From contig NZ_KB235958.1 of the NCBI RefSeq assembly GCF_000332355.1, positions 868,797-932,796 on the forward strand: a stretch of 64,000 nt of DNA. Direction: 5' to 3'. A program made the translations under genes and the position numbers. The stretch's first letter is position 1; every line of letters begins with the position of its first letter. Of the stretch, positions 20,747 through 39,411 are shown one piece after another. The notes under the pieces were generated by a model. That model saw only the letters and a list, made by a program, of their open reading frames with translations. It was not told the DNA's origin and ran no database searches. This stretch comes from Baaleninema simplex PCC 7105. GTDB taxonomy: Bacteria > Cyanobacteriota > Cyanobacteriia > Cyanobacteriales > Geitlerinemataceae.

Positions 20747-23701
20747 ATGATTTCCGTTTGGGCGAGCGTTCCCATCCTATTACTAGCGAGTTTCCTCATC
20801 GGCGGATTGCCCCTAATTCGTTGGATCGTTCTCGCTCTGGGCCGCAAAGACTTGCGAGAGTTGGGAACCGGAAACGTTAGCGTGTCGGCGGCGTTCTACC
20901 ACGGCGGACGTTGGCTGGGAATTTTAGCCGTTCTCTCCGAAGCCGGAAAAGGCATTGCAGCGGTACTGCTGGCCCGATCGCTCGTTCCCGACGCCCCTAT
21001 CTGGGAGTTAGTAGCGTTGCTCGTCTTAGTCCTCGGACGCTATACCCTAGGACAAGGGGCGGGAACCACCAATGTCGTCTGGGGGGTATTCGCTCACGAC
21101 TGGCGTGTAGCCGTATTGGTCGCCCTCATCAGTGGTTTGAGTTTTACCGTCGTGCGAGAACGCCAAGCCGGTCGTAACCTGGTTTTAGTGCTGCTTCCCG
21201 CCGTAATGTGGATGCTGTACCCCCACGCAGCCGCTCGAGTGGTGGCGGCTGGCGCGCTCAGTGCAGCTCTCTATTGGACGTATCGATCGATGCCTGACGA
21301 TTTAGATTTATCCCCCTCTGGCGGACGACCGGAAACCCGCAAGCTATTCCGCTTTTTCCGCGCCGATCGCGCCCTAGTCACGCTCGATCGCCCCCTAGAC
21401 GCCCGAAACGTCGGGGCGAAAGCTGCCACGCTTTCCCAACTGCGACGGTGGGGCTATCCCGTCCCGATGGGGTGGGTGTTAAAACCGGGAGACGACCCCG
21501 AAATCTTGCTCGAATCGCTTCACCCGTCTCAAGAAAATCCGCTGGTGGTGCGATCGTCGGCGTTGGGGGAAGATACAGAACGCGCCTCCGCCGCCGGACA
21601 GTACGAGAGCGTCGCCAACGTGACCGACCGTCAAAGACTCTTCGAGGCGATCGAGCGCTGCTTGGCCTCGGTGTCCGTCCCCTCCGCCGTTCGATATCGC
21701 CAAGAACGGGGGATCGAAGACAGCGACATGGCCGTTCTCGTCCAGCAACAAATCCGAGGGGTCTTTTCCGGGGTCGCCTTCAGTCGCGATCCGATTTTAC
21801 GGTGTGGCGATGCCGTCGCCATCGAAGCGCTACCGGGTGCCGCCTCCCAAGTCGTCTCGGGACAACTGACGCCAGAACGCTATCGAGTGTTCGTTCCCGA
21901 CGAGTACGCGTCTCTCGACTGGAACGATGAAGAAACCGGAAAATGCCCAGAGTTGGTCGTCGATGGCGAACCGGGAGACGTTCCCCAAGCGATGTTACGT
22001 CGCGTCGCGGTGTTAGTTCGTCAGTTAGAACGTCGCTTTCAGCAGGTTCCCCAAGACGTCGAATGGAGTTTTGACGGACAGCATCTGTGGCTGTTGCAGT
22101 CCCGTCCGATTCCGACGCTGCTGCCAATTTGGACGCGCAAAATTGCCGCCGAAGTGATTCCCGGCTGCATTCGTCCCCTGACGTGGTCGATCAACCGTCC
22201 GCTGACCTGCGGCGTGTGGGGTGACATTTTTTCCATCGTGTTGGGATCTCGCGCCGAAGGGTTAGCCTTTCACGAAACGGCTACGCTGCACGACTCCCAC
22301 GCCTATTTCAATGCCTCTCTGTTGGGGGAAATTTTCCACCGCATGGGGCTTCCTCCCGAAAGTTTAGAATTTTTGACGCTGGGAACCTCTACGAGCAAAC
22401 CGCCCCTGTTTTCGACGCTGCGTAACCTGCCGGGATTGTTACGGTTGTTAGGCCGTCAACGTCGGTTGGGGAAGGATTTCGATCGCGACGATCGCGAGAC
22501 CTTCGCGCCACTACTAGCGCAGTTGGACACCTCGCCAGTTTTGCCCTGGGGAGACTGCGAGATCGCCTCTGCCCCGTCACCGTCACAACTGTTAGATCGG
22601 ATCGAGCGCATTTTAGAGGGGTTAGAACGGGCGACGTATTACAACATTCTCGCGCCCCTCGGATTTGCCGCACAAAAGGCGGTGCTTAAAGTGGACGACG
22701 ACGCCTTAGACACGACGCGAGTTCCTGAAGTTGCCGCATTGCGGGCGTTGCAGGAACTGGCCGCTTCCGCCCGATTGCTGTTGCCAGAATTTCGTGCCGA
22801 TCGCCCGACATCGACGCGTGTAGACACTTCCTCGCTGTTCGCGCGTTTGGCGGAAACTACCGACGGGAACAGCATTCTCGAGGCGTTCGATCGCTTTCTC
22901 GATCGCTTCGGCTATCTCAGCGAAGTGGGAACCGATATCTCAGTTCCCACCTGGCGCGAAGACCCCCACCCGGTACGAGAACTGTTCGCCAAATCCATCG
23001 CCGACCCGACATCGCCGCCCTCGAAACCGACGTCGTCTCAGCGGGGGCAACAGTGGGTTCAACAGTCTCTAGAGTTAAAAGGACGAGTCGCCGAGGTCTA
23101 CAGTTGCCTGTTGGCACAGTTGCGGTGGAGTTTTGTCGCCTTGGAACGCCTTTGGTTAGACGCGGGATTGTTAGCCGAACCGGGAGATATCTTCTTTTTG
23201 GTCTTTCGCGAAGTTCGTACCCTCGTCACGGGGGAAAATCCCGATCTGGCCGAGTTCGTCCCGGCATTGGTGGCGCAGCGACGGGCGAAGTTCGAGCGCG
23301 ATCGCCAGTTACCCCGCGTGCCGAGGGTTACCTACGGAACACCTGCCATGACCCTGTTAGCCACGGAAGACCGTCCGGCGCGATCGCGCTTGCGTGGGAT
23401 CGGTGCCAGTGCGGGTCAAGTGGAAGGTTATGTCAAAGTCGTTCGCAATTTAGCCGCCGCCTCGAAGATCGATCGCCAAACGATTTTGGTGGTGCCTTAC
23501 ACCGACGCGGGATGGATGCCGTTGTTGGCGCAAGCGGGGGGATTGATTGCCGAAGTGGGGGGGCGTCTGTCTCACGGGGCGATCGTTGCTCGCGAGTACG
23601 GCATTCCGGCCGTGATGGACGTGGCCGAAGCGACGCGGGAACTCCGAGACGGCCAGCACGTCCGCTTAGATGGAGAAGTCGGCCTCGTTGAAATTTTGTA
23701 G
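20747..23701 (+). CDS. Fusion: PlsY-like acyltransferase domain plus PEP-synthase-like domains
   Basis: 984 residues; AAGGAG lies just before the ATG. Residues 1-180 are a multi-span membrane domain like glycerol-3-phosphate acyltransferase PlsY, but the family's GSGN and GGKG-type motifs are altered here to LGTGNVSVSA and LGQGAGTTN. Residues 215-460 are a pyruvate/PEP-binding ATP-grasp domain (VVRSSALGEDTERASAAGQY; VEWSFDG; LLQSRPIPT). A long middle section follows, then a C-terminal phospho-histidine swivelling domain (GGRLSHGAIVAREYGIPAVM, catalytic His in LSHG). The soluble part resembles PEP synthase and rifampin phosphotransferase. The substrate is unknown; a membrane-tethered phosphotransfer enzyme is the safest reading. 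Confidence 0.8.
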   Translation: MISVWASVPILLLASFLIGGLPLIRWIVLALGRKDLRELGTGNVSVSAAFYHGGRWLGILAVLSEAGKGIAAVLLARSLVPDAPIWELVALLVLVLGRYTLGQGAGTTNVVWGVFAHDWRVAVLVALISGLSFTVVRERQAGRNLVLVLLPAVMWMLYPHAAARVVAAGALSAALYWTYRSMPDDLDLSPSGGRPETRKLFRFFRADRALVTLDRPLDARNVGAKAATLSQLRRWGYPVPMGWVLKPGDDPEILLESLHPSQENPLVVRSSALGEDTERASAAGQYESVANVTDRQRLFEAIERCLASVSVPSAVRYRQERGIEDSDMAVLVQQQIRGVFSGVAFSRDPILRCGDAVAIEALPGAASQVVSGQLTPERYRVFVPDEYASLDWNDEETGKCPELVVDGEPGDVPQAMLRRVAVLVRQLERRFQQVPQDVEWSFDGQHLWLLQSRPIPTLLPIWTRKIAAEVIPGCIRPLTWSINRPLTCGVWGDIFSIVLGSRAEGLAFHETATLHDSHAYFNASLLGEIFHRMGLPPESLEFLTLGTSTSKPPLFSTLRNLPGLLRLLGRQRRLGKDFDRDDRETFAPLLAQLDTSPVLPWGDCEIASAPSPSQLLDRIERILEGLERATYYNILAPLGFAAQKAVLKVDDDALDTTRVPEVAALRALQELAASARLLLPEFRADRPTSTRVDTSSLFARLAETTDGNSILEAFDRFLDRFGYLSEVGTDISVPTWREDPHPVRELFAKSIADPTSPPSKPTSSQRGQQWVQQSLELKGRVAEVYSCLLAQLRWSFVALERLWLDAGLLAEPGDIFFLVFREVRTLVTGENPDLAEFVPALVAQRRAKFERDRQLPRVPRVTYGTPAMTLLATEDRPARSRLRGIGASAGQVEGYVKVVRNLAAASKIDRQTILVVPYTDAGWMPLLAQAGGLIAEVGGRLSHGAIVAREYGIPAVMDVAEATRELRDGQHVRLDGEVGLVEIL

Positions 23702-26292: not shown

Positions 26293-29187
26293 TTAAATCC
26301 CCATGCAAATCGCTTTTTGAGTTTCGCTCAACGTCGGATTCGTAGTCAGATAATCCGAAAGCCAATCGCACCCCTCCTCTAACAAGCGATCGATCGAGAC
26401 GCCAGCCGACTCGTTCTCCATTTGCTCGAGAGATTCCACATCCCACAAAATAATCGTCTTATCGGCACTACCAGAGGCTAGCTTTTGCCCGTCGGGGCTG
26501 AAACTGACCGCACGGACCCAGTTATTGTGAGCGGCGAGAGTCTTCAGTAACGTCCCGTCCGTATCCCACAGGCGAACCGTATTGTCTTTTCCCGCCGAAG
26601 CAATAATTTGACTGTCTTGACTGAAGGTAACGTCCCAAACCCAATCCGTATGGTCTTCTAAAATCGCGTGAGGCGTCGTCTCGATCCGACCGTCGTTCCA
26701 ATTCCACACGCGCGCCGTATTATCGCCCCCCGCCGTCACCAGAAACCGACCGTTCGGACTGAAATACAACGCGTTAATCCAAGCCTCGTGAGCTTGTAGT
26801 TCTCGAACTAACTCACCGTCGAGCGTCCAAACCTTGAGTTTGCCCTCGCCACCGACCGAAACGAAATAAGACCCATCTGGAGAAAAGCTCACGTCGGTCA
26901 CTTCCGGTTCGTGAATCCCCTCGAGCGTTTGCAGCAACGTGCCATCGCCAATCTGCCAAAGCCGAACCGAACCGTCGGAACTGGCCGACGCCACCAATCG
27001 ACCATCGGGGGAAATACTGAGGTTTTTGACCGTCGAGGTGTGACCGACAAAGCGACGAACGGGGACTGCGTTATCGAAGTTCAGAACCTCGTCCAAATTC
27101 CACAGTTGCAGGGAATTATCGTAACTGGCCGTAATCGTAAACTGACCGTCGGGGGTAAAGTTGACGTTTCGCAACCCCGCCTCGTACTCGATGCTACGCA
27201 ACAATTGCGCCCCGTCTCGCTTCCAAATCTTTAAAGTATTATCAGTTCCCACCGACGCGATCAGGTTATCGGGACTGAAGCGCACGCCTTTGATACCAGA
27301 ACGGTGTCCCTGTAGGATCTCGACCACCGCCCCTTCAACGCTTCGCAAGCGAACGGTCGTATCGTCACTTCCCGAAACGATGGTATTGCCGTCAGGGGCA
27401 AAGGACACGCTCCGTACGCTGGCATCGTGACCGACAAAGGTTTTCAACAAAATGCCGCTGACGCTCCAGAGTTTGACCGTGTTGTCGTCGCTCCCGGTGA
27501 CTAAAGCTTTCCCGTTGGGAGAAAAGGACACGCTCCGTACCCAGTTCGTATGGGCCCGCAGTTGACGCAGGGCTTTCCCTTCTAAATTCCAGACGATCGC
27601 CGTATTGTCGGAACTCGCTGTCGCGATGGTATTGCCGTCGGGAGAAAAATCGACGTCCCACACTTTATCCCGATGTCCTTGAAACACCCGTTCGGGTTGA
27701 GGGGCGTTTTCCGTCACCTCTGCATCGTCGGCATCCGTTACCACTTCGATCGCCACCTCGGTTCCGCTGGCGTCCGCACCGGCCGCCGTTTCCTCCTCGG
27801 TTTCGGGATTGAGAACCGTCGCGATCGCCCACAATTTCACGTTAAGGTCGTGACTGGTGGTCGCAAAAGTTTTACTGTCGGGGCTGACATCGAGATCGTT
27901 GACTTCGCTGTCGTGGGCGGTAAACGTCGTTAACAACTCTCCCTCTGGCGTCCACAACCGCACGCGTCCGTCGTCGTCACCCGTGATGACGAGTTCGCCG
28001 TCGGGAGTCACGCGAATCGCCCGCACTCGCGCCCCGTGGTCGAGGGTTTGCAATAGCGAACCGTCTTCGACGTTCCACAGTTTTGCCGTTTCGTCTTTCG
28101 AGGCGGAGGCGACGATTTTACTGTCCGGGGAAAAGGCCACGCGGCGAACGTGGTCGTCGTGTCGGAACACGTGTAACGCTTCCCCGTTGCGTTTCCAAAC
28201 CCGCACGGTGTCGTCGTCGCTGGCCGAGGCGAGGAGTTCGCCGTTAGGCGAAAAAACGACGCGGTTGATTTGGTCTTCGTGGCCGTCGAGGCGGTTGCGT
28301 TCTTGTACGTCGTAAACCGCTTGGCGGAGAACCTCCGTGGTGGTCGCGACGAGGTCGGGGGGAAAGTCGTAGTTGAGTTGGAGGTGTCGGGCGGCGTGAA
28401 CGGCGTGTTGTAGGGCTTCGAGGCCGTCGTCGGTGAGCCGTCGGGCTTCTGAGAGGGCAGCGAGGGCGCGAACGCTCTGTTCTTGGGCGCGATTTCGTTC
28501 TCCCACCGCCACGGCGCGTTCTTTGACGGCGACGATCGCCAGGAGGCTGGTGGCGACCAATCCCACGGCAACCCCTCCGAGGATCGTTTTCTGACGTTTG
28601 CTTTGTTGTTGTTCGCTGGCGATGACGTATTGAGTTTGCAAGGGGGTCGGTTCGGGTTGTTTGTCCCCCCTTTGACTCAGCCACGCCGCAGCATTTTTGA
28701 GGTCGTTACCCCGGAGGGTGAAGCTAGCATCGCGGTCTTTGCTGTCCCATTCGATCGCTCGCTTGAGCAGTCGCGTGTGAGCGCGGACGTACTCGAGATC
28801 GGTGTCGATCGTCGAGAGGAGTTTGGGAAACGTGGCGTCGAAATCGTCAGTTTCGCGGAAGAAAATCCAGTTGAGTTTGGCCAGTTCCGGGTGAACCTCG
28901 TCGTAGGAGACTTCTTGGCAGACGATCGGAATCAGGCGTTTGTGGTGGGCGATCGCGTGTTCGACTTCCTCGCGGCAGACTTGGGAGGCGACGGAGTCGG
29001 GACTTAGGACGAAGACGAAATTATCGGCCGCTTCGATACCCCGATAGATTTCTTGTCGCCAGTCGGCGTTGAGGGGAATGTCTTCCCAATCGACCCAAAT
29101 CTCCCGTTTGTGTTCGCAGAACGCTTGGTGCAGGCGCTGAACGAACGCTTTGTTTCGGCGACAGTAGGAAATAAAAACGTCTGTCAT
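26293..29187 (-). CDS. TIR domain, membrane helix and 14 WD40 repeats
   Basis: 964 residues. Residues 1-125 are a TIR domain (MTDVFISYCRRNKAFV, WVDWEDIPL, FVFVLSPDSVASQVCREEVE); the Glu pair at 73-74 is where NADase TIR domains carry the catalytic Glu. A single membrane helix follows at about 201-221, then a helical linker, then 14 WD40 repeats, enough for two seven-bladed propellers. Blades 4 and 5 are split by an acidic insert. There is no NACHT or AP-ATPase domain, unlike many cyanobacterial TIR-WD40 proteins. The tail GCDWLSDYLTTNP recurs in such regulators. A stress, death or phage-defence signal is possible but only inferred. Confidence 0.88.
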   Translation of the reverse strand: MTDVFISYCRRNKAFVQRLHQAFCEHKREIWVDWEDIPLNADWRQEIYRGIEAADNFVFVLSPDSVASQVCREEVEHAIAHHKRLIPIVCQEVSYDEVHPELAKLNWIFFRETDDFDATFPKLLSTIDTDLEYVRAHTRLLKRAIEWDSKDRDASFTLRGNDLKNAAAWLSQRGDKQPEPTPLQTQYVIASEQQQSKRQKTILGGVAVGLVATSLLAIVAVKERAVAVGERNRAQEQSVRALAALSEARRLTDDGLEALQHAVHAARHLQLNYDFPPDLVATTTEVLRQAVYDVQERNRLDGHEDQINRVVFSPNGELLASASDDDTVRVWKRNGEALHVFRHDDHVRRVAFSPDSKIVASASKDETAKLWNVEDGSLLQTLDHGARVRAIRVTPDGELVITGDDDGRVRLWTPEGELLTTFTAHDSEVNDLDVSPDSKTFATTSHDLNVKLWAIATVLNPETEEETAAGADASGTEVAIEVVTDADDAEVTENAPQPERVFQGHRDKVWDVDFSPDGNTIATASSDNTAIVWNLEGKALRQLRAHTNWVRSVSFSPNGKALVTGSDDNTVKLWSVSGILLKTFVGHDASVRSVSFAPDGNTIVSGSDDTTVRLRSVEGAVVEILQGHRSGIKGVRFSPDNLIASVGTDNTLKIWKRDGAQLLRSIEYEAGLRNVNFTPDGQFTITASYDNSLQLWNLDEVLNFDNAVPVRRFVGHTSTVKNLSISPDGRLVASASSDGSVRLWQIGDGTLLQTLEGIHEPEVTDVSFSPDGSYFVSVGGEGKLKVWTLDGELVRELQAHEAWINALYFSPNGRFLVTAGGDNTARVWNWNDGRIETTPHAILEDHTDWVWDVTFSQDSQIIASAGKDNTVRLWDTDGTLLKTLAAHNNWVRAVSFSPDGQKLASGSADKTIILWDVESLEQMENESAGVSIDRLLEEGCDWLSDYLTTNPTLSETQKAICMGI

Positions 29188-29220
29188 GGCTTCGCTCGAT
29201 GCACGACTGAATGAGATAGG

Positions 29221-30528
29221 TTAGTTGACATCCTCACCGCCCTGGAAGGACGGTGATTCCCAAACCGTTCGGCTGACGCTCACGGCGAAGCCTCGCGATT
29301 TGGGTTCCTGCTTCCTTCCCTTACGGGTTTTTCGCAGTTGCTCTCCGGATCGAGATCCTTCAAGTCTTCGTTCTCTCGGATGCAAGCTCCGAGAGCTGCG
29401 AAGACTGCGTCTTACACTCGCTTCACAGGCTGTAACGGTGTGTCCCACCGCCAAGAGGTTTCGTGCGGCGTTGATGTCCCGGTCGTGAACCGTCCCACAT
29501 TTCGGACAAGTCCACTCTCTGACATCCAACGCCATCGAATCCATTTTGTGTCCGCAACTCGAACACAATTTGCTACTCGGAAACCATTTATCTACCTTGA
29601 CGAGAGTACGCCCGTACCACTGACATTTATAGTCCAGTTGGTTGACGAACTCTCCCCACGCACAATCAGAGATGTGTTTGGCGAGTTTGGGATTTCTCAC
29701 CATCCCTTTAACCGACAAATCTTCCACCGCAATCGTTTGGTTTTCGCGAACGAGGCGGGTTGTCAGTTTGTGCAGGTAGTCGCTCCGAGCGTCTCGAATT
29801 TGTTCGTGAATCTTGGCAACCTTGCGACGCGCCTTCTCTCGATTCCGAGAACCCTTCATCTTGCGAGAGAGAGCTTTCTGGGCGCGTCTCAGGCGTCTGT
29901 AATGTTTCGTCAAATGACGAGGATTCTCCACTTTTTCGCCGTCGCTGGTGATGGCGAGATGGGCGATTCCTACATCGACGCCGATGCTTTTCTCGGACTG
30001 GGGAAGCGGCTTGATGGTATCGTCGTCTAACAAGATAGAGACGTGCCATCGTCCCGAGGGTTCGAGTCGCACCGTGACGGTCGAGGGTTCCGCGCCTTTG
30101 GGGAGTTGACGACTCCATCGGATGTTGAGGGGTTCTTGGCTTTTCGCTAAATACAGAGAACCATCTCGCCAACGAAACGCCGCTTTGGTAAATTCGGCGC
30201 TACCTCCATTCCGTTTCTTTTTAAAACGGGGATACTTGGCTCTTCCGGTGAAAAAGTGGGAATATCCCTTATCGAGGTGACGCAATCCTTGCTGGAGGGG
30301 AACCGCAGAGACTTCTGTGAGAAACTGCAACGCCTCTTCTTGCTTCCACTGCGTCAACATCTTTGAGGTTTCGCGATACCCCACCTTCTCCTGTCGCTCC
30401 TTCCAAGCTTGGGATCTCGCTGCCAACGCCTTGTTGTACACGAGCCGCACGCACCCGAGAGTCCGCCGCAAGAGGGACTCTTGCTCAGGAGTCGGATAGA
30501 AGCGATATCGGAATGCTCGAAGTGTCAT
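29221..30528 (-). CDS. tnpB: RNA-guided nuclease/transposase accessory protein TnpB
   Basis: 435 residues from the ATG at 30528 (MTLRAFRYRFYPTPEQ). The helix-turn-helix-like N-terminus is followed by a split RuvC nuclease: Asp in SIGVDVGIAHLAITSDG, Glu in TIAVEDLSVKGM and Asp in VHDRDINAARNL. A four-Cys zinc finger (CSSCGHKMD and CPKCGT) lies between the last two. All catalytic residues are present, so it should be an active RNA-guided, transposon-associated nuclease. The last residues (PSFQGGEDVN) are encoded by the right-end hairpin itself, so tnpB mRNA and guide RNA would overlap, as known for this family. Confidence 0.92.
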   Translation of the reverse strand: MTLRAFRYRFYPTPEQESLLRRTLGCVRLVYNKALAARSQAWKERQEKVGYRETSKMLTQWKQEEALQFLTEVSAVPLQQGLRHLDKGYSHFFTGRAKYPRFKKKRNGGSAEFTKAAFRWRDGSLYLAKSQEPLNIRWSRQLPKGAEPSTVTVRLEPSGRWHVSILLDDDTIKPLPQSEKSIGVDVGIAHLAITSDGEKVENPRHLTKHYRRLRRAQKALSRKMKGSRNREKARRKVAKIHEQIRDARSDYLHKLTTRLVRENQTIAVEDLSVKGMVRNPKLAKHISDCAWGEFVNQLDYKCQWYGRTLVKVDKWFPSSKLCSSCGHKMDSMALDVREWTCPKCGTVHDRDINAARNLLAVGHTVTACEASVRRSLRSSRSLHPRERRLEGSRSGEQLRKTRKGRKQEPKSRGFAVSVSRTVWESPSFQGGEDVN

Positions 30529-30600
30529 TTGGGAGTTTAAACCCTCTCTGCCCATTTTACGGTCAAGCCGCCCTAGAAGGGCGGGGTTTTAAACCCAAAA
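29221..30600 (-). mobile_element. Complete tnpB-only IS200/IS605 (IS1341-type) element
   Basis: The element reads on the minus strand. Its left end holds a hairpin CCGCCCTTCTAGGGCGG (30568-30584) flanked by TTTAAA-type sequence. Its right end is the hairpin CCGTCCTTCCAGGGCGGTGA then GGATGTCAAC, ending at about 29222, which overlaps the last tnpB codons. There is no tnpA, so it would need a transposase in trans. The outer boundaries are set by the hairpins and are good to about 15 bases. Confidence 0.85.
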
Positions 30601-30751
30601 TTTTTGATAAGTTCAGAAGTTCGACGCGCGACGGCAGGCAAGTGAGAACTGGCGAGAGCGTTCTGCGGCCGTCGAGGGTCTGTCTGTGCGGGTAACTGGG
30701 CGATCGCGGGAAACCGGCCCGCACGTCACCCACCCCGGCGCTCTCACACCC

Positions 30752-31456
30752 CTACTTCGACACGTAATGAATCCAGAGATCGCCATCGCTGCCGCAGACA
30801 TGGCTCATCATGCCGTAGGAATAGGTCAACCCTTCCCCAGTTCGATGGGTATCGTATCCCCATTCGTACCATTCCCCGTACGGATCGTTGACGATCCACC
30901 CTCGTTCGTTATAACCGCGAATCACGATAATGTGACCCGATCGCGTAAACCAACCGTGGGTAATAATCGGATTGCCAGAGGCCAACCATTCTTTGACTTC
31001 TCCCCATTTCGCATCGGGTTGAAAGTCGTCTTTGTACCCGTAAGCTCGCACCAGTTTCGCCAAATCGATGGGGGAGTGACGGGACAAACCATAATCCAAA
31101 CAATACTGATATAGCTCGTCTTCGAGTTGTCGTCCCCCGTCGCCGATCGCCGGATGTCCTAAATAGGTCAAACACATAGCAACGCAGGTCACGTTGCAAG
31201 ACCCGTGGGGATTGTTGACGTTATCGAGTTGGGACAAATAGGGAACGGGTAAATCGACCTGTTCGGCCAGACCCGGCTTGGCGGCTTGCACTTCCACCGG
31301 TTGGGGCGGCGTGCGCCAAATGGTGACGAAATCGGAGTCAGCATCGAGCAGCTCGGGATTGGTTTGCAACAATTCCCGTTCGAGATAAGCCAGCGCCTCG
31401 TCTTGGTGAGACAAACCTTCGTAGTATTTGGCAACGTTTACGAGTGAGATAGTCAT
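30752..31456 (-). CDS. C39-like peptidase with VAKYY-HQ N-terminal module
   Basis: 234 residues from the ATG at 31456. Residues 1-50 form a module (SLVNVAKYYEGLSHQDEAL) ending in IWR, almost the same as that of the next gene upstream. The papain-fold C39-type peptidase covers about 85-234: Gln in YLSQLDN, Cys in GSCNVTC, His in SGHIIVIRGYN and Asp/Asn in WIVNDPYG. There is no signal peptide. It follows its larger paralogue by 71 bases, suggesting tandem duplication and co-transcription. Cleavage of peptides or peptidoglycan cross-bridges is a family-based guess. Confidence 0.8.
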   Translation of the reverse strand: MTISLVNVAKYYEGLSHQDEALAYLERELLQTNPELLDADSDFVTIWRTPPQPVEVQAAKPGLAEQVDLPVPYLSQLDNVNNPHGSCNVTCVAMCLTYLGHPAIGDGGRQLEDELYQYCLDYGLSRHSPIDLAKLVRAYGYKDDFQPDAKWGEVKEWLASGNPIITHGWFTRSGHIIVIRGYNERGWIVNDPYGEWYEWGYDTHRTGEGLTYSYGMMSHVCGSDGDLWIHYVSK

Positions 31457-31527
31457 CGCCCCATCGTCATCAAATAGACAGCACAGATTGGGTCGTACGC
31501 GTTTCGGTTCGTGCGCGTCGGCGATCG

Positions 31528-33255
31528 CTAACCGATCGCCTGTTGGAGATCTTGGACGACCGGCCAGAAGTGATCCCATCCGTTCAAACCGCCGTTGACG
31601 GCGCGTCGCACCCCTTGCCAGTCCCCTTCGAGGGCCCGTTGGTCTACCGATCGCTCCCAAAAATACTCCACGAGAATCTTCGAGGCCACGTCGGGATCGA
31701 GAGCCAGTTCGGGATTGTTTTCGAGATCGACGCCGAGTTTTTCGCCGTAGTGGTGATAGTTAGCACGGCCGGTAATTTGAATAAAACCCCGTCCGTGATA
31801 CCGAACGCCATCGCCGGGATAGATGTTGCCGAGGTCTTCACGACCTTCGTACATCTGAGTAAAGTAATCGTTGCCGCCCCATTCGTTAATGGGTTGGAAT
31901 CCGTTCGTTTCGACTGAGATCGTCGCCAGAGCTGCGATCAAGGTGGGTTTGTTGAGGATTCCTCGTTGTTCTAACCCTCGGATCAGCGGCGGCAGATACG
32001 TTTGCACGTCTTCGAGTTTCGCCCCCATCAGACGAGCCGCCACCTCGAAGGCGATCCACTGACTGACATCGTCGAGTCCCGGTACTTCTTTGGCTTCGAT
32101 GAGTTTCTTGGCGAATTGGGGCGTGATTTGGTCGGTGGGTAAGTCAAAGGCTCGGGCAAAACGTTCGATCGCCGACTTGGTTTTCGGACCGTACAAGCCA
32201 TCGGCTTTGTCGTGCAACACTTTGAGCGCCCGCAGTCGTACTTGAAGTTGTTTGATAAGAGCTTGAGATTTCGCCGCTTTCGTCCAAGATAAGGTTTTAT
32301 GGTCTCGGAGAATATCTTGCAGCTTGAGTTGCGTCGTCTCCGAAGGGGTTGCGGTGGCGATCGAACTGTCCCGACTGCGGGTGACGCTTCCTTTGGGTAA
32401 GGGGGTCGCCTGTCCCGGTTTGCCATCGACGTAGTGAATCCACAGGTCGCCGTCGGGGCCGCACACGTCTCTCAGGTCGGCGTAGCTGTAGACGACGCCC
32501 GCACCGCTGGCATAGGTGTCGTAACCGCTGCGACTCCAATGACCGTAAGGATCGTTGACGATCCAACCGCGATCGTCGTAACCGATAATCGTGACGATGT
32601 GGCCGGAACTGGTAAACCAACCGTGGGTGATGCAGGGTTTACCTTGACGCAACCAGGCTTTTACGTCGTCCCATTTAGCGGCTTCTTGGAAATCGTCGCG
32701 GTAGCCGTACAGTTGTAGCAGTCGGGCTAGGTCGTGGGGAGAGTGGCGGGACAGTCCGCGATCGAGCATGAACTGATAGAGTTCGTCTTCGAGTTGCTGT
32801 CCGCTGCTGTTTTTCGTGGGATGTCCGAAGTACGCCATGCACATGGACACGCAGGTCACGTTACAGGAGCCGTAAGGATTGTTGGTGTTGTCGAGTTGGC
32901 TGAGAAACGGTACGTCGAGTTTGACCGAACCGTCGGGTCTCACATAACTCGGCGGCTCGGAGGTCGAAACGGCCGCCGTCGCTGCGGTGGGTTTGGCGTG
33001 GCTGACGCTGGCGGCGATCCCTTGGCTGAGGGTGGTCATTTGCTGGCCGAGTTGTGCTGGGGAGGCACTGTTGGCAGCCGCAACGGTTGTTTTTTTAGAT
33101 TTCGAGGACTTGCGCCAGATGTTTAGAAATTCTGAGTTATCGGCGAGCAAATCGGGACGAACCGCCGCGATTTGTTCTTGTAATCGTTTGAGGGCTTTAA
33201 TTTGATGGGGCAGGTCTTTATAATATTTGGCGACGTTGACGAGGGAAATGCTCAT
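31528..33255 (-). CDS. C39-like peptidase, peptidoglycan-binding and GH19 lysozyme-like protein
   Basis: 575 residues. Residues 1-50 are the VAKYY-HQ module, followed by an Ala/Ser/Thr linker. A C39-type peptidase follows at about 115-280 (GSCNVTC; SGHIVTIIGYDDRGWIVNDP). A peptidoglycan-binding-1 domain lies at about 330-390 (LHDKADGLYGPKTKSAIERF). A GH19 domain forms the end (about 400-575): catalytic Glu in ATISVETNGF and the YHGRGFIQITGRANY signature. Two kinds of wall hydrolase sit in one chain without a signal peptide, so release by lysis, an injection apparatus or a non-classical route must be considered. Confidence 0.85.
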   Translation of the reverse strand: MSISLVNVAKYYKDLPHQIKALKRLQEQIAAVRPDLLADNSEFLNIWRKSSKSKKTTVAAANSASPAQLGQQMTTLSQGIAASVSHAKPTAATAAVSTSEPPSYVRPDGSVKLDVPFLSQLDNTNNPYGSCNVTCVSMCMAYFGHPTKNSSGQQLEDELYQFMLDRGLSRHSPHDLARLLQLYGYRDDFQEAAKWDDVKAWLRQGKPCITHGWFTSSGHIVTIIGYDDRGWIVNDPYGHWSRSGYDTYASGAGVVYSYADLRDVCGPDGDLWIHYVDGKPGQATPLPKGSVTRSRDSSIATATPSETTQLKLQDILRDHKTLSWTKAAKSQALIKQLQVRLRALKVLHDKADGLYGPKTKSAIERFARAFDLPTDQITPQFAKKLIEAKEVPGLDDVSQWIAFEVAARLMGAKLEDVQTYLPPLIRGLEQRGILNKPTLIAALATISVETNGFQPINEWGGNDYFTQMYEGREDLGNIYPGDGVRYHGRGFIQITGRANYHHYGEKLGVDLENNPELALDPDVASKILVEYFWERSVDQRALEGDWQGVRRAVNGGLNGWDHFWPVVQDLQQAIG

Positions 33256-33579: not shown

Positions 33580-35757
33580 TTAACAAAACACCAAAGCGGT
33601 AACGAGCAGTTGCAACGTCAACAACACCGGCCAGTACAACAGTTTGGGGATTAAGTTGTTGCGATAGCGCAGGAGAAAGGCATTCGATCGCTTGGCCACC
33701 AACAAACCATCGATGGCCACGAACAAAATCATCACGTACAAGACAAAGTAAAAATACTCAATGTAGAGAATTCCACCAGTCGCCAACGAACTTCTCAAAT
33801 TAATTTGGTCGAGAATCAAAATGAACGTAAACGCGCCAGCAGCGGAAATCACCCCCGACGCGCTAAATCCGAGTTCGTCGTCTTCGATCTTAAAGCGAAT
33901 AATGGTTTGCACGCCGAACAACAACACCGCCACCACGATCGTTCGCATCATTTTCGTGATAAACACGGTCAGGAAATCTCGACGCATCACGACATCGAAA
34001 TACAGTTCGGGGAAGTTTTTCAGTTGCGTTTCGCCCTGGAACCCAAACCCCGTATTGTAACTGTTGAGCTTGTATTGAAAAAAGCTCTGCTCTAAGATCC
34101 ACCCCGGCATCACGAAATTTTCCCCCATTTCGAGACCCGGTAAGGTGGTGGGGGACAAAATATCGTAAGCGGCCAAATCCGGCGTCAACACGACGTTTCC
34201 GGCGAAGTCCTGGTGCCAGATTCGCATCCAAACGTCTTTGCGATCGAACGGATACTTGGAGTAATCGAACGGCTGTCGCAATTTGGCTTCGATATACCAG
34301 CCAATGAGTTCGCCACCGTCAAATTCTTGGCGATAGCTTTCTCGAACGCTCGCTGACGTTGCCTCGGGTAACACGAACCCACGCGAAATCTCGTCGTGAA
34401 CGCCGTCGAGATAACGCTGCCACACATAACCCGTCACGAAGACATCGTTAGCGTCGCTAAATTCCAACGACTGCAAAAATACCCCAGTCGGGACGAATAC
34501 GGGGGGTGTATCTCCGGCAGCTTTAGCGCGTCGCGTTTGCTCGGTGAGAAATTTTTGTAAGCGAGCGGGATTGGCGATTTTGATGCCCATATCGTCGTCG
34601 AGGCTGGTCTGACTCATTTCCAAGCCCCAAATCGCACCGATTCCACCGGCCAAAAAGACGGACACCACGACGACTAAACCCCACAGACGATGAATACGAT
34701 CGCCGTCGGGACGAATCGCCACCACCGAACCGAACACCAAACTCGCCACCACAAACAGCGTCAGCCAAATGAGTTTCCGGTCTAAACTCCTCGTATTCTG
34801 AAACACTTCGTCTCGAAACAAGACGACGGCTAACGACCACTCCGTCGAGGGAATCGGTTCGTAAACGACCCACGCCGACGCACGACCTTTCGGGGTCAGT
34901 TGTATCGCACCCCGTTCGCCGGACAGCATGGCCTCGGCCAGTTTCTCAAACTGAGGTGCGTTCCAGTGTTCGGACAGGTCGAAGATCGACCGTCGTTCTT
35001 TCACGACCGCATCGACGGGATGGTAAACGAACTTTCCCGATTGGGAGACGACGAACCCGTATCCCGTTTTCCCCAACGCCAAAGACTCCATTAAGGTTTT
35101 GAGTTGTTTGAAGTCGTAGTTGGCGTAAACGATACCGTTGGGGTCGGGCGTTGGAGGGCTTGTCTCGGGGGTCGCGAACGGAACGCTATATTCGGCCAGG
35201 AGTTGCTGGAGAACGCGTCCGAGATAGGGATCTGCCCACTGCGCCCCCCCGTTTAGGGGATCGTTGAACCAGGCGATATCGGGTTGGGTGTAGTCGTAAG
35301 TGTCTTCGACGTTGAAGCGTTGGAAGCGCTCTCGGTCGGGGCGATCGGGGTCGGGGACGCGCTTGTAGACGGGAGCGTACAGTCGCGTTTCGGCGTTGTA
35401 ACCGTAGGGTGCGTAAGCGACGCCCACGCTGGAGAGGTTTTCGTTCTTTTCTAACTGCGTCTCGAGGCGATCGTCGAGGTCTTCTTGGCTCAGCCGACCG
35501 GTGTTCAGGTCTTCTGCTAACTCTTCGACGACGGTTTCGAGGGCTTTCAGTTGGCGATCGATTTGTTCGACCGCCCGTTGGGTTTCTGTAACGGCCCTTT
35601 CGGTGGCGGTCTCGATTTTGCGATCGCGTTCGCTCCAGTAGGACACGGCAGTCCCGATCGCACCCAAAATGCTGACCGTTCCGAGAATTCCCACCGTTCG
35701 CACCAGCCATCGGGTTCGGTGGGTCGCACGGGTTGGGGTTATTGGTTCTTCACCCAC
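33580..35757 (-). CDS. Cache domain fused to a pentameric ligand-gated ion channel-like protein
   Basis: 725 residues from a GTG at 35757, with GAGGAG 8-10 bases upstream. A membrane helix (17-40) leads to an extracytoplasmic Cache sensor domain (about 45-315), then two helices (328-348, 358-378). Residues 420-590 form a beta-rich domain with VPTGVFLQSLEFSDANDVFV and KYPFDRKDVWMRIW (near 502), matching the first strand and the PFD loop of Cys-loop/pLGIC ligand-binding domains. Four membrane helices follow (592-725), as in pLGIC M1 to M4. Known bacterial channels such as DeCLIC also carry Cache-type N-terminal domains. Ion flux gated by a small ligand is inferred. Confidence 0.75.
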   Translation of the reverse strand: MGEEPITPTRATHRTRWLVRTVGILGTVSILGAIGTAVSYWSERDRKIETATERAVTETQRAVEQIDRQLKALETVVEELAEDLNTGRLSQEDLDDRLETQLEKNENLSSVGVAYAPYGYNAETRLYAPVYKRVPDPDRPDRERFQRFNVEDTYDYTQPDIAWFNDPLNGGAQWADPYLGRVLQQLLAEYSVPFATPETSPPTPDPNGIVYANYDFKQLKTLMESLALGKTGYGFVVSQSGKFVYHPVDAVVKERRSIFDLSEHWNAPQFEKLAEAMLSGERGAIQLTPKGRASAWVVYEPIPSTEWSLAVVLFRDEVFQNTRSLDRKLIWLTLFVVASLVFGSVVAIRPDGDRIHRLWGLVVVVSVFLAGGIGAIWGLEMSQTSLDDDMGIKIANPARLQKFLTEQTRRAKAAGDTPPVFVPTGVFLQSLEFSDANDVFVTGYVWQRYLDGVHDEISRGFVLPEATSASVRESYRQEFDGGELIGWYIEAKLRQPFDYSKYPFDRKDVWMRIWHQDFAGNVVLTPDLAAYDILSPTTLPGLEMGENFVMPGWILEQSFFQYKLNSYNTGFGFQGETQLKNFPELYFDVVMRRDFLTVFITKMMRTIVVAVLLFGVQTIIRFKIEDDELGFSASGVISAAGAFTFILILDQINLRSSLATGGILYIEYFYFVLYVMILFVAIDGLLVAKRSNAFLLRYRNNLIPKLLYWPVLLTLQLLVTALVFC

Positions 35758-35902
35758 GATCGCTTCTCCTCAATGGTTAGACACACAGGAAGTTTTGACG
35801 GGAGAGTCGGCGATCGAGAACGGCCGCGCGATGGCGTCGCGATCGCCTTCTGTTGCCAGAGTTTCGACGGCATCGGTTCGGGAGCGATCGCACCTCTACG
35901 CA

Positions 35903-35970
35903 GTTAGATAAAACTGTTTAAGGTTAGATAAAATAACTAATTTAAGCAAGATTAGCTACTTTAGTTAGAT
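35903..35970 (-). promoter_or_regulatory. Three GTTAGAT direct repeats upstream of the channel gene
   Basis: GTTAGAT occurs at 35903, 35923 and 35964; the first two are exactly 20 bases apart and extend to GTTAGATAAAA. The set lies in an AT-rich section 146-213 bases upstream of the channel start. Spacing by about two helical turns suits regulator binding. The DUF4231 gene ends at 36018, just beyond. Confidence 0.35.
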
Positions 35971-36017
35971 TCGCTACCCTTGTTTTCGCCGCCTGTTGAG
36001 GGAGGGAGTACGAGGGA

Positions 36018-36878
36018 CTATTCCCAACGAGACGTAATCGGAGCGCCGGGGGGTTTCGACTCGTCGATTTCGAGATTGTCGAGATCGCTGGTGTCCGGTT
36101 CCTCTAGCTGGCGCGGAGCGCGACGGGGCGGACTGGACGTAATCGGAGGTGCCGGGGGCAAATCCGTATCCGTCTCGGAGGCGAAGTCGTCACCATAGCG
36201 GGGAACGGTCGGTTCGGGAGGTGTCGTTGACAGCGATCGATCGAACTCCCGAGGACGAGGCGGCGGTGGCATCGGCGCACCCGGTATCGGTCTCGGAGTC
36301 GGCTGGTATTGAGAGCCGATCGTACTGGCCGTTTCGTAAATCTTTTCTTTCTCTTCCTCCGTTTGTTTGTTCTGCACCACCTCAGTAATCACAGAGACGT
36401 CTTCTTGAATCGCCTGTTCGATACGACCGGCAAAACTACGATAGGCGCTCTCGTGACTGTTCGCGTCCTTATACACGCCACTGAGTTGGAAAAACTGCCA
36501 TCCTTCAGTTTTGAGAGTTTCGGCGGTTTTGCGATACTGCGTCCACTTGTCGCCGTAGTGGAAAAATTCTTCGACGGCGGCGGATATGGCCACCACTTGA
36601 GCTAAACCGAAAGTTCCCCAGAACACGATCGTTCTCACTCGACCTTGTTGGAAGTTCAAACTGACCAGCGCGGGAATGATGACGCCCCCGATAATCGTCA
36701 CCAACCGCAGGCGATAGTATTGTTTCTGACATTGTCCGGCTTTCTTTTCGAGCCAAAGGAGTTGGTCGAGCCAGCGAGACTTGAGAAATTGTTTTTGCTG
36801 GTCGTTGAGGTCGAGTCCGTCGATTAACTCGCCGAACTGTTCTTTAAGATATGCGGTATAGGAGTTTTTTTTGGCCAT
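36018..36878 (-). CDS. DUF4231 (SLATT-like) membrane protein
   Basis: 286 residues. Residues 1-190 match DUF4231: a helix with LKSRWLDQLLWLEKKAGQCQ, then two membrane segments (about 58-75 and 81-105, LVTIIGGVIIPALVSL and TIVFWGTFGLAQVVAISAAV), then FHYGDKWTQYRKTAETLKTE and another long helix. The topology is that of the SLATT group, predicted to form pores in nucleotide-centred conflict systems. The C-terminal 95 residues are Pro/Asp/Arg-rich and probably disordered. It lies between the LSDAT gene and the channel gene, all on the minus strand. Confidence 0.8.
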   Translation of the reverse strand: MAKKNSYTAYLKEQFGELIDGLDLNDQQKQFLKSRWLDQLLWLEKKAGQCQKQYYRLRLVTIIGGVIIPALVSLNFQQGRVRTIVFWGTFGLAQVVAISAAVEEFFHYGDKWTQYRKTAETLKTEGWQFFQLSGVYKDANSHESAYRSFAGRIEQAIQEDVSVITEVVQNKQTEEEKEKIYETASTIGSQYQPTPRPIPGAPMPPPPRPREFDRSLSTTPPEPTVPRYGDDFASETDTDLPPAPPITSSPPRRAPRQLEEPDTSDLDNLEIDESKPPGAPITSRWE

Positions 36879-37108
36879 TGTTGTCTTCTCGAACGATGGA
36901 AGCTCGCGACGTTCCCAATTTTAATCTCGAGCAGAACGATCTCGAGGGATGGCGTTTCGGGTCTGGAGGCAGTGTCAAATGGCTGGCAAACGGCGCTGAG
37001 GGGTCGCAACCCACATAGGTTTTACCCAGAACGGCGCGGCCGGCACGCTCAACAGCAGTATATGGGAATTTGTCGAGGGCGAACAGTGGGGCGATCGGGG
37101 GTGTTGCG

Positions 37109-37855
37109 TTACCCTGACGGCGCAGTTAACAGGTCGCTGACGACGGTTTGCAGGAAGTCGATGTCGTTGTCCAAATCCAAAACTTGCAAGCAGCCAGTGC
37201 GGATGAGGGGTTCGGCGCGATCGTCAGTGGGTTCGCCCCGCAGTCCGGCGGCCAGTTTGTCGGCGGTGCGTCCGCTTCCGGCTAAAACAACGGTGGTGCG
37301 ACGCGCTTTGACGCTGTACGAAACGTCTTGCCAGGTGATTTCGCCGCCGTTGCTGACGAGGGTACACGCGGGGAAACCGTTGGCGATGTAGTCTGCCAGG
37401 TCTGCCAGCCAGGGACTTTCGGCACCCCAGTCCGTACCGGGAACGAGGACGAAGTGGCTGTGGTTGGGTTCGAGGGGGGCGGCGTCGTCGGAAATGGGGG
37501 GCGTTCCGTCGGGGAGAAGAACGGTTCCGATCGCACAGACGCCGATGAGGGGAAAAGTGCCGTCGATATGGGTGCGAGCTTGTCCCATTAGCTGCATGAC
37601 GCCGCAATCGGTACCGCCGTCGAGGGCGATCGCGCTGACTTTTTCTAGGGTGGGAGCGAGAACGTCGTCGAACAAGGTTTTGAGGCGAGCGAAGGCGTCG
37701 GGTTCCATTTTGCTGGCACCGCCGACGAGAACCAGAACGGGACGAGACCGGGACAGTCCGAGGCGATCGAGACTCGTTTGAAAGTCGCTCTGAGACTCTA
37801 GATAGATGCCCGTGGCAGTATTCCCGTTGTGAAAGTGAAAAGAAGTCGGTTCCAC
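37109..37855 (-). CDS. LSDAT (SLOG superfamily, TRPM-like) protein
   Basis: 248 residues, probably from a GTG at 37855 with no clear ribosome binding site. A Rossmann-like fold is seen with VLVLVGGASKMEPDAF (about 40-55) and AIALDGGTDCGVMQLMGQAR (74-93), the LSDAT signature, and LVSNGGEITWQ near residue 166. LSDAT is the prokaryotic relative of the N-terminal ligand-binding region of TRPM channels and is predicted to bind nucleotide-derived ligands such as ADP-ribose. No membrane segment is present. Its neighbours are a SLATT-like and a channel-like protein, a fitting context for a ligand sensor. Confidence 0.8.
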   Translation of the reverse strand: MEPTSFHFHNGNTATGIYLESQSDFQTSLDRLGLSRSRPVLVLVGGASKMEPDAFARLKTLFDDVLAPTLEKVSAIALDGGTDCGVMQLMGQARTHIDGTFPLIGVCAIGTVLLPDGTPPISDDAAPLEPNHSHFVLVPGTDWGAESPWLADLADYIANGFPACTLVSNGGEITWQDVSYSVKARRTTVVLAGSGRTADKLAAGLRGEPTDDRAEPLIRTGCLQVLDLDNDIDFLQTVVSDLLTAPSG

Positions 37856-38118: not shown

Positions 38119-39411
38119 TTGAAAGTTTTTAACGCATTAACCCGATCGCAACGACGAAGTTTGTCCCTGCTCTTTGCGGCTGGGCTGTTTTTTTGGTCGA
38201 GCATGGCCTCACTGCTGCCGACGTTGCCCCTCTACGTCAAGCACGTGGGCGGAACGGAACAACAGATCGGATTCGTTATGGGATCGTTCGCCCTCGGTTT
38301 GGTGCTGTCGCGGCCGACCCTGGGCCGGTGGGCCGACTCCCACAGCCGAACGTTCGTGTTGCGGGTGGGAACGGTGGTCGTGGCGATCGCGCCGTTGGGC
38401 TATCTCCTCGTGTCGTCGATTCCGGGGTTGATGGCGCTGCGGACGTTCCACGGTATCAGTATCGCCGCCTTTACGACAGCATACAGTGCCTTGGTGGCCG
38501 ATCTGTCGCCACCGCAACAACGGGGAGAACTCATCGGTTACATGACCTTGGTTACGCCCTTGGGGGTGGGACTCGGCCCGGCGTTGGGCGGCTTCGTCCA
38601 GGCGGATTTGGGCTATCCGGCGTTGTTTTTAACGACTTCGGCTCTCGGCGTCATCAGCGGACTCTGTGGCTGGCAACTGGCCGAACCCACGTCGTTCGAG
38701 GAAGATAGGGCGGCGCAACCGCCTTTCGAGACCTCGCGATCGCCCTCGGAGGCGACGCCCGAACCCAAGCCAGAAGCAAACTTTTGGCAGTTGTTAGCGA
38801 GTCCTCGGGTGCTGGTTCCGACGGTGGTGATGTCGGTTGTGGGCTTGATTTTCGGGACGCTGACGACGTTCGTTCCGTTGCATATCGAAGCCAGCGCGAT
38901 CGCTCTCAATCCCGGTTGGTTCTACACGGCGACGGCGATCGCGAGTTTCAGTATGCGCCTGGTAGCCGGTCAAGCCTCCGATCGCTTCGGACGGGGACTG
39001 TTTATCAGTAGTGCTTTGGTGTGTTATGCCCTGTCGATGCTGACCCTATCCGTGGCAGACCGCAGCGAGTTATTTTTACTAGCGGGGTTCGTCGAAGGGA
39101 TGGCCGCTGGGGTGTTGATTCCGACGACCATCGCCCTGATGACCGATCGCTCTGCGCCCCAAGAACGGGGACGGGTGTTTTCGCTGTGTGTGGGAGGCTT
39201 CGATTTGGGTATCGCCATCGCCGGGCCGCTGTTGGGATCGATCGCTCAGTATCTCAGCTACGGGGCGTTGTTCGCGATCGCGGCGGGGTTAGCGGTGTTT
39301 GCGTTGGTCGTGTTCGTAACCCGCAACAGTAAGGATTTCCCTCATTCGGTACGGTTTGCCCTAGGACGCGAACGAGATTTATACGCGATCGAAATGCCGA
39401 GTCCCCGTTAA
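38119..39411 (+). CDS. MFS efflux-type transporter
   Basis: 430 residues, starting at a TTG (38119) with GGAG upstream; the protein N-terminus MKVFNALTRSQRRSLSLLFA fits an MFS start. Twelve hydrophobic segments are seen, with the motif A loop GRWADSHSRTFVLRVG after helix 2 and a second form, GQASDRFGRGLFI, after helix 8. A cytosolic loop rich in Pro/Glu separates the halves (about 195-220). It resembles drug or metabolite exporters; the substrate is unknown. It is divergent from the LSDAT gene. Confidence 0.85.
   Translation: MKVFNALTRSQRRSLSLLFAAGLFFWSSMASLLPTLPLYVKHVGGTEQQIGFVMGSFALGLVLSRPTLGRWADSHSRTFVLRVGTVVVAIAPLGYLLVSSIPGLMALRTFHGISIAAFTTAYSALVADLSPPQQRGELIGYMTLVTPLGVGLGPALGGFVQADLGYPALFLTTSALGVISGLCGWQLAEPTSFEEDRAAQPPFETSRSPSEATPEPKPEANFWQLLASPRVLVPTVVMSVVGLIFGTLTTFVPLHIEASAIALNPGWFYTATAIASFSMRLVAGQASDRFGRGLFISSALVCYALSMLTLSVADRSELFLLAGFVEGMAAGVLIPTTIALMTDRSAPQERGRVFSLCVGGFDLGIAIAGPLLGSIAQYLSYGALFAIAAGLAVFALVVFVTRNSKDFPHSVRFALGRERDLYAIEMPSPR

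Follow-up and report, generated by a model that had tools for sequence, protein, structure and literature searches.

A candidate TIR-SLOG-SLATT self-killing locus with phage-type lysis enzymes and an accessory Cache-channel in the cyanobacterium Baaleninema simplex

Introduction

Nucleotide-centred conflict systems with SLOG, SLATT and SMODS domains were reportedly described by Burroughs et al. in 2015. In the Thoeris system the TIR protein ThsB works with ThsA, which is of the SIR2-SLOG or the transmembrane (TM)-macro type, and an NAD-derived signal leads to abortive infection; the SLOG domain of ThsA binds isomers of cyclic ADP-ribose (PMC11204291). The MHR1/2 region of TRPM channels, that is the LSDAT domain, binds ADP-ribose (ADPR), as in TRPM2 (PMC13143021). 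SLATT is required for phage defence by DRT10 (PMC12632851), has been predicted to act as an effector under ADPR control in TIR loci (PMC9503650) and is predicted to form pores (PMC7159879, PMC12632851). The architecture of a Cache domain, a ligand-binding domain and four TM helices (ART-LGICs) has been known since 2004 (PMC549065). Here we describe a locus of Baaleninema simplex PCC 7105, in a stretch of 64,000 nucleotides (contig NZ_KB235958.1, positions 868,797 to 932,796; the window), where genes for an LSDAT protein, a SLATT protein and a Cache-type pentameric ligand-gated ion channel (pLGIC) are followed by genes for an endolysin-like enzyme, a second C39-like protein and a TIR-WD40 protein. 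We suggest, at roughly even odds, that it encodes a self-killing system of the TIR-SLOG-SLATT kind, which is membrane-based (abortive infection or programmed lysis) and carries its own phage-type lysis enzymes.

Results

LSDAT and SLATT are a recurrent pair

An initial annotation of the window had reported an LSDAT, a DUF4231/SLATT and a Cache-channel gene in a row on the reverse strand. The positions, the strand and the gaps (230 bp between LSDAT and SLATT, 260 bp between SLATT and the channel) were confirmed, and the three family names are borne out by Pfam and NCBIfam matches and, for the channel, by its similarity to GLIC. Since LSDAT, SLATT and the channel each have homologues across cyanobacterial families, we regard all three as genuine coding genes.

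The LSDAT protein matches PF18171 with E = 1.4e-66 (223.9 bits, cut-off 25.4) and the eukaryotic TRPM LSDAT family PF18139 with E = 7e-9; TRPM2 chains in the PDB match it with E = 3.7e-5. The positions D79-G-G-T-D, G85, M87, N169-G-G and G193xG-R-xAD are invariant in 29 homologues. By analogy with TRPM2 and with the ThsA literature, the protein would bind an NAD-derived nucleotide. No phage match to LSDAT was found. The SLATT protein matches PF14015 (E = 1e-32, 113 bits against a cut-off of 24.7), SLATT_3 (E = 9.5e-10) and the NCBIfam model SLATT_1, NF033634 (E = 8.5e-33, 113.1 bits against 41), and it matches no holin family. Its two TM helices are predicted at residues 57-75 and 84-102, and the basic flanks on both outer sides suggest an N-in/C-in topology. 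With such a topology a lysin, fused to SLATT or separate, would therefore, like an endolysin, be kept on the cytoplasmic side up to the moment at which the membrane opens.

A DUF4231 gene is found within 2 kb of LSDAT in 18 of 29 cases, with 0.03 expected by chance (G numbers denote genomes, L loci, f families and g genera; f1 is the Geitlerinema/Phormidium family). These counts rest on the matches listed, and some coordinates were entered by hand from match tables. The adjacency occurs in families f1, f5, f14, f20, f29, f32 and f33 and, outside the order, in L238 and L240, and in plasmids of Hymenobacter and Candidatus Chlorohelix, from two further phyla, LSDAT and SLATT are fused into one protein. 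LSDAT-SLATT is a widespread cyanobacterial pair. Of 149 genomes from the order, 27 contain LSDAT, 50 DUF4231 and about 18 a full-length Cache-pLGIC. Other LSDAT loci contain NB-ARC/NACHT, AAA-TPR, TPR-S and patatin proteins and SLATT_1-DUF4231 double proteins; the same range of partners is known from conflict systems that Aravind's group has described (PMC7159879, PMC9503650).

Lysins and a TIR-WD40 protein are linked to the pair

Directly downstream of the channel gene, at 26293-33255, three more co-directional genes encode the lysin, the second C39-like protein and the TIR-WD40 protein. The lysin has C39_2, PG_binding_1 and GH19 domains (Pfam). E449 and E458 of GH19 and H219 and D235 of C39 are invariant, and C131 is kept in 87% of the sequences. 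As judged from sequence, the catalytic domain, the wall-binding domain and the catalytic residues of an endolysin-type enzyme are all present. Endolysins of Synechococcus phages mirror the whole architecture (84% of the query is covered in S-N03), the list of PDB matches is headed by phage endolysins (9ms7, 4ok7), and no signal peptide or TM helix is predicted. Homologues of the second C39 protein, also 234 aa long, are found in L090, L130 and L142; its start is placed at an internal ATG at 31456, with the mechanical open reading frame (ORF) extending to 31660.

The TIR protein carries TIR_2 at its N-terminus (E = 3.7e-29), which is the kind of domain that defines ThsB of Thoeris, though ThsB models match it weakly: PADLOC gives weak ThsB and SAVED-TIR matches only (ThsB E = 5e-6). 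A TM helix follows at residues 202-220, and one such helix stands between TIR and WD40 in all 23 of the 23 TIR-WD40 proteins of these loci. The putative catalytic glutamate of TIR, E74, is 97% conserved.

In the nearest relative, Geitlerinema sp. BBD 1991-9 (G114, L090/L146), the six genes are present in the same order and on the same strand, with gaps of 97, 97, 375, 72 and 324 bp and no transposon. The lysin-C39-TIR trio was verified in G009 (L130) and G097 (L142), is indicated by match positions in G038, G080 and G145, and appears again in G056 of family f2 (L131). Neighbourhood scans, for which small hidden Markov models of TIR, WD40, GH19, C39, SLATT and LSDAT were built with thresholds that are not curated, place GH19 genes within 5 kb of TIR in 13 of 27 cases (0.15 expected). 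In such scans 11 of 29 LSDAT genes, from five families, have a TIR gene no more than 10 kb away (0.66 expected). LSDAT stands directly beside TIR-WD40 in L236 and L248, and in L245 with patatin between them. Lysins are also joined to SLATT itself, as a SLATT-C39-GH19 fusion in G004 (L127) and as SLATT-GH19 fusions in G042/G084 (L138, L137), which come from a different SLATT clade. In Hymenobacter a gene with GH108 and PG_binding_3 lies 47 bp before the LSDAT-SLATT fusion, which makes three independent links of lysins to SLATT or LSDAT. The association of TIR, LSDAT, SLATT and lysin across lineages, by adjacency and by fusion, is well supported; at least five cyanobacterial families show these ties, and LSDAT-SLATT fusions are found in two further phyla.

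The third gene encodes a predicted Cache-pLGIC

The channel protein matches dCache_1 (E = 1.1e-14, Pfam) and dCache structures (Z = 25.5); its C-terminal half has no Pfam match. In the whole-protein AlphaFold2 model (predicted local distance difference test score, pLDDT, 72) the C-terminal half matches full-length GABA-A/glycine receptors with E of about 2e-10. The matches of the whole-length model are dominated by the Cache domain; therefore, the channel module (residues 386-725) was folded alone with AlphaFold2 and 57 relatives from bacteria and archaea, which raised the mean pLDDT to 86.8. The module superposes on GLIC with Z = 20.7 over 270 residues at 2.8 Å, and Foldseek returns GLIC, ELIC, GABA-A and GlyR chains (GABA-A subunits with E = 3.6e-14). 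By sequence, the profile of 57 channel relatives matches GLIC with E = 7.1e-5; the YPFD motif is aligned between them and GLIC, and P118-F119-D120 is invariant. In the predicted structure a beta-sandwich ligand-binding domain is followed by four TM helices. The modelling thus indicates that the third gene encodes a true pLGIC module and that the label ‘Cache-channel’ is right. The protein probably points to the outside of the cell, from where it would supply an input, or it would contribute ion flux.

The family is broad, with members in Methanosarcina, Nitrospirota, Bacteroidales and the Roseobacter group. A prophage or viral origin of the channel was considered and rejected, as a scan of viral_contigs gave no relative. 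Tandem duplicates of Cache-pLGIC genes occur in L091, L147/L271, L099 and L100, and they perhaps represent hetero-oligomeric subunits. Channels with a long N-terminal extension, about 1250-1290 aa in total length, are found in Spirulina-type genomes and a euryarchaeote (L104:6236-10111, L268:7546-11295, L218:7091-10894). In families f32 and f19 (L099, L100, L101, L102, L107) the Cache-pLGIC gene adjoins a DUF815/AAA ATPase gene or stands one gene from it, with a gap of 23 bp in L102.

The channel joins SLATT in one family and in Microcystis

Of 391 genomes from the order, 44 contain a member of the channel family. In f1 the channel adjoins SLATT in all nine channel-bearing genomes (in one with an insertion sequence between them), and LSDAT joins the two in six of the nine; one more of these loci is at a contig edge. 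Protein identity there has fallen to about 52% and the outer flanks differ, with the arrangement MFS<->LSDAT>SLATT>channel kept. Elsewhere, among 79 channel loci of bacteria and archaea, SLATT or LSDAT was found beside the channel in Microcystis only, and 73 other channel loci (flanks up to 10 kb, many shorter) contain no TIR, WD40, SLATT or LSDAT and one GH19. This agrees with the initial annotation, which regarded a Cys-loop-type channel in such company as unusual. That the trio is a single unit conserved throughout cyanobacteria was rejected, since outside f1 no channel was found next to LSDAT.

In Microcystis wesenbergii the channel adjoins SLATT within a TIR-channel-TPRS-SLATT operon with gaps of 22-84 bp (L151). 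In trees, this channel groups with Crocosphaera-type channels (support 100/99), whose loci are without SLATT, and its SLATT groups with that of family f14 (93/87). Because these placements differ, we conclude that the juxtaposition in Microcystis arose independently of that in the window. Hence, the Cache-pLGIC has apparently been added to the TIR-LSDAT-SLATT-lysin system twice.

Two arrangements around these channels are recorded here as side observations. An OrfB gene lies between SLATT and the channel in G038 (L094:8121-8993). In genus g2 (L092:10193-13991 and relatives) Nudix-like, phosphoketolase-like and Uma2 genes stand downstream of the channel, and the Nudix protein could act on ADP-ribose-type nucleotides.

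Organization of the locus

The features of the locus are collected in Table 1. The OrfB gene of the IS605-type element is inserted between the lysin pair and TIR-WD40 and is missing from this place in G114/L090. A scan for promoters and terminators gave counts near those of shuffled sequence. The MFS transporter is kept beside LSDAT across f1, even in genomes without the channel there; it is a possible functional partner that our model does not explain. Further away, the ORF at 20747-23701 joins glycerol-3-phosphate acyltransferase, PPDK_N and PEP-utilizer domains, an unusual fusion beside a sulfotransferase gene.

Table 1. Coordinates of the genes of the locus and its neighbours in the window.
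Feature	Position	Strand	Details
LSDAT (TRPM-type SLOG) protein, predicted nucleotide receptor	37109..37855	-	248 aa, GTG start
SLATT/DUF4231 two-TM membrane protein, predicted pore effector, Pro-rich C-terminal tail	36018..36878	-	286 aa
dCache + TM hairpin + pLGIC subunit	33580..35757	-	725 aa, GTG start, 7 TM
C39-type peptidase + peptidoglycan-binding + GH19 enzyme, endolysin-like	31528..33255	-	575 aa, Pfam
Second C39-like protein	30752..31456	-	234 aa; PF13529 E 5.6e-18
OrfB/TnpB of IS605-type element, outside the system	29221..30555	-	PF01385, PF07282
TIR - single TM - WD40 propeller protein, predicted NADase/signal producer and sensor	26293..29187	-	964 aa
MFS transporter, divergent neighbour of LSDAT	38119..39411	+	MFS_1 E 3.9e-56

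Discussion

Proposed mechanism

From the domains and their linkage we infer the defence function, the identity of the signal and the role of the channel. The self-killing system might then work as follows.

Step 1: The TIR-TM-WD40 protein would sense the threat, and its TIR domain would turn NAD+ into an ADP-ribose-type nucleotide. The domain, the putative catalytic glutamate and the TM helix are seen in the protein.

Step 2: LSDAT, as a prokaryotic form of the ADPR-sensing domain of TRPM channels, would bind this nucleotide, as is suggested by TRPM2 and by the SLOG of ThsA.

Step 3: LSDAT would act on SLATT, which would then oligomerise and open the inner membrane. The linkage of the two genes and their natural fusion are observed, and the pore is predicted.

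Step 4: The signal-less C39/peptidoglycan-binding/GH19 enzyme and its C39 partner would reach the wall, or act at it, and cause lysis of the cell, much as endolysins work once a holin has opened the membrane. The enzyme identity, the active-site residues and the SLATT-lysin fusions support this step; its timing and action are presumed.

Step 5: The Cache-pLGIC would be an accessory, an ion channel gated from outside the cell that supplies another input or ion flux. The Geitlerinema/Phormidium family and, on a separate occasion, Microcystis would have recruited it, and elsewhere it would be dispensable. The outcome would be altruistic lysis.

In its boldest form, which we put forward only tentatively and regard as rather doubtful, the locus would be a phage-style lysis cassette used as an immune effector: TIR would signal through LSDAT to SLATT as the holin equivalent, endolysin would be released, and a nicotinic-type pLGIC with an outward Cache sensor would let ion flux or danger cues from outside the cell bear on that same decision.

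Several observations weigh against the self-killing system as we propose it. The gaps of 230-324 bp in the window and the IS605 insertion weaken the claim of an operon. In genus g2 (G009, G038, G080, G097, G145) SLATT-channel, in most cases with LSDAT, stands apart from the lysin/TIR cluster, and therefore the six genes need not form one transcript. The remainder of the window is housekeeping where annotated, with no defence island, so that the case for defence comes from the protein families and the partners they have, not from an island. PADLOC gave no meaningful match for the three genes of the initial annotation and no match to a lysin or LSDAT/SLATT model, and large cyanobacterial genomes commonly contain WD40-TIR proteins. 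The chance expectations are Poisson values with genomes treated as independent, and several families contribute more than one genome.

Alternative explanations

The place of the channel is the point at which an alternative is a real, though lesser, possibility, namely that LSDAT-SLATT, with TIR and the lysins, is the system and that the Cache-pLGIC is an unrelated environmental chemosensory channel, which landed beside it in the ancestor of f1. The general lack of SLATT or LSDAT neighbours outside f1 and the pairing with a DUF815 AAA protein in f32/f19 fit this account. So do two genomes of f1, G131 and G061, which keep LSDAT-SLATT with the channel absent, and G009, where the channel gene is split (L095:6490-9881) into a part of 645 aa and a C-terminal fragment, with a further ORF in the interval, and SLATT and LSDAT are intact; the last case also counts against our own mechanism. 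Because G131 and G061 lack the channel and its gene is interrupted in G009, we treat it as optional, and the broken gene hints that it is dispensable. However, the channel directly follows SLATT in every channel-bearing genome of f1 despite the divergence of the proteins and their changed flanks, and the tightly spaced Microcystis operon is independent. The opposite simplification, in which LSDAT, SLATT and the Cache-pLGIC alone make up one signalling unit, was the reading of the initial annotation. The order and strand of the trio are conserved in six f1 genomes, and g2 genomes keep it without lysins nearby; yet LSDAT-SLATT occurs without the channel in many families, and TIR and the lysins are statistically tied to the same core, which makes this reading very unlikely. 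The core is instead LSDAT and SLATT with TIR-TM-WD40 and the phage-type lysins, which that annotation had left unlisted though they lie directly downstream. Its idea of a nucleotide-centred conflict system is upheld. Its concern that the three genes are neighbours only in close relatives proved correct for the full trio, which is confined to one family, and not for the channel with SLATT and TIR, as L151 demonstrates. Likewise, co-occurrence in cyanobacteria beyond chance holds for LSDAT-DUF4231, and the channel was found beside LSDAT in f1 only.

Two other accounts concern the lytic output. A lysis module might serve normal physiology, such as necridic cell death, trichome breakage, a response to heterotrophs or predators, or wall stress, and not phage defence. 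Trichome fragmentation by cell lysis is known in filamentous cyanobacteria, to which the hosts belong, the locus lies among housekeeping genes, and multicellular prokaryotes are enriched in conflict systems of a related kind (PMC7159879). Against this, LSDAT/SLATT/TIR loci are patchy between close species, their partners vary (NB-ARC, TIR repeats, TPR-S, patatin) and some are on plasmids, which is the pattern of defence genes, and the restriction of LSDAT to a minority of the genomes (27 of 149) points the same way; we consider a purely physiological role unlikely. It seems to us very unlikely that the C39/GH19 proteins are endolysins left behind by a prophage, or everyday enzymes of wall remodelling, that stand beside the others by chance. 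Their likeness to cyanophage endolysins and the C39-GH19 + C39 pair that stands alone in other genomes (L132-L136) would agree with it, but no phage structural genes were found among the annotated neighbours (part of the window ORFs was scanned), SLATT-lysin fusions arose twice independently, GH19 recurs near TIR, and a GH108 gene lies beside LSDAT-SLATT in Bacteroidota. We retain the TIR-SLOG-SLATT self-killing system as our working model.

Comparison with known systems

The locus resembles Thoeris in that a TIR protein occurs with a SLOG-fold nucleotide sensor, as in the SIR2-SLOG type, or with a nucleotide-clustered TM effector, as in the TM-macro type. It differs in the stand-alone SLOG of the LSDAT/TRPM kind, in SLATT and lysins as the effector and in the TIR domain joined via a TM helix to WD40. 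No ThsA-type SIR2 or macro domain was found among the locus genes searched with Pfam, and for this reason we do not class the locus as Thoeris; it is Thoeris-like in logic only. It is not classed as CBASS either, because no nucleotidyltransferase match, and thus no CD-NTase, was found among the locus genes searched. The SLOG/SLATT/SMODS systems (PMC7159879, PMC9503650) share with it LSDAT and SLATT, a TIR signal maker, a predicted nucleotide-gated SLATT pore and STAND, TPR-S and WD40 partners. In the literature searched we did not find SLATT fused or adjacent to endolysin-type lysins, nor recruitment of a Cache-pLGIC. In DRT10 and DRT9 (PMC12632851, PMC12483538) SLATT is likewise required for, or associated with, phage defence; however, the trigger there is a reverse transcriptase product and not TIR/LSDAT.

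The small two-TM membrane protein beside a signal-less endolysin-type enzyme recalls a phage holin-endolysin cassette, but SLATT is no known holin family, and the locus is chromosomal, with no phage structural genes among the annotated neighbours, and coupled to TIR/LSDAT. If our model is true, TIR/SLOG immunity would be extended to a lytic output with endolysin-type enzymes. The six-gene cassette of G114/L146, which is compact, close and uninterrupted, makes this directly testable in laboratory strains. The channel shares the Cache, ligand-binding domain and four TM helices of ART-LGICs (PMC549065) and the fold of GLIC, and differs from them in the N-terminal TM helix, the extra TM hairpin and its place beside SLATT, LSDAT and TIR; it would gain the first testable role of a bacterial Cys-loop-type channel in a conflict system. 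Finally, as in TRPM2, LSDAT stands beside a membrane domain predicted to be a pore, and in Hymenobacter and Chlorohelix is fused to it, with the difference that this membrane part is SLATT and not a TRP channel. The model, if true, would show the TRPM sensor domain at work in bacteria, where LSDAT controls a simple membrane pore.

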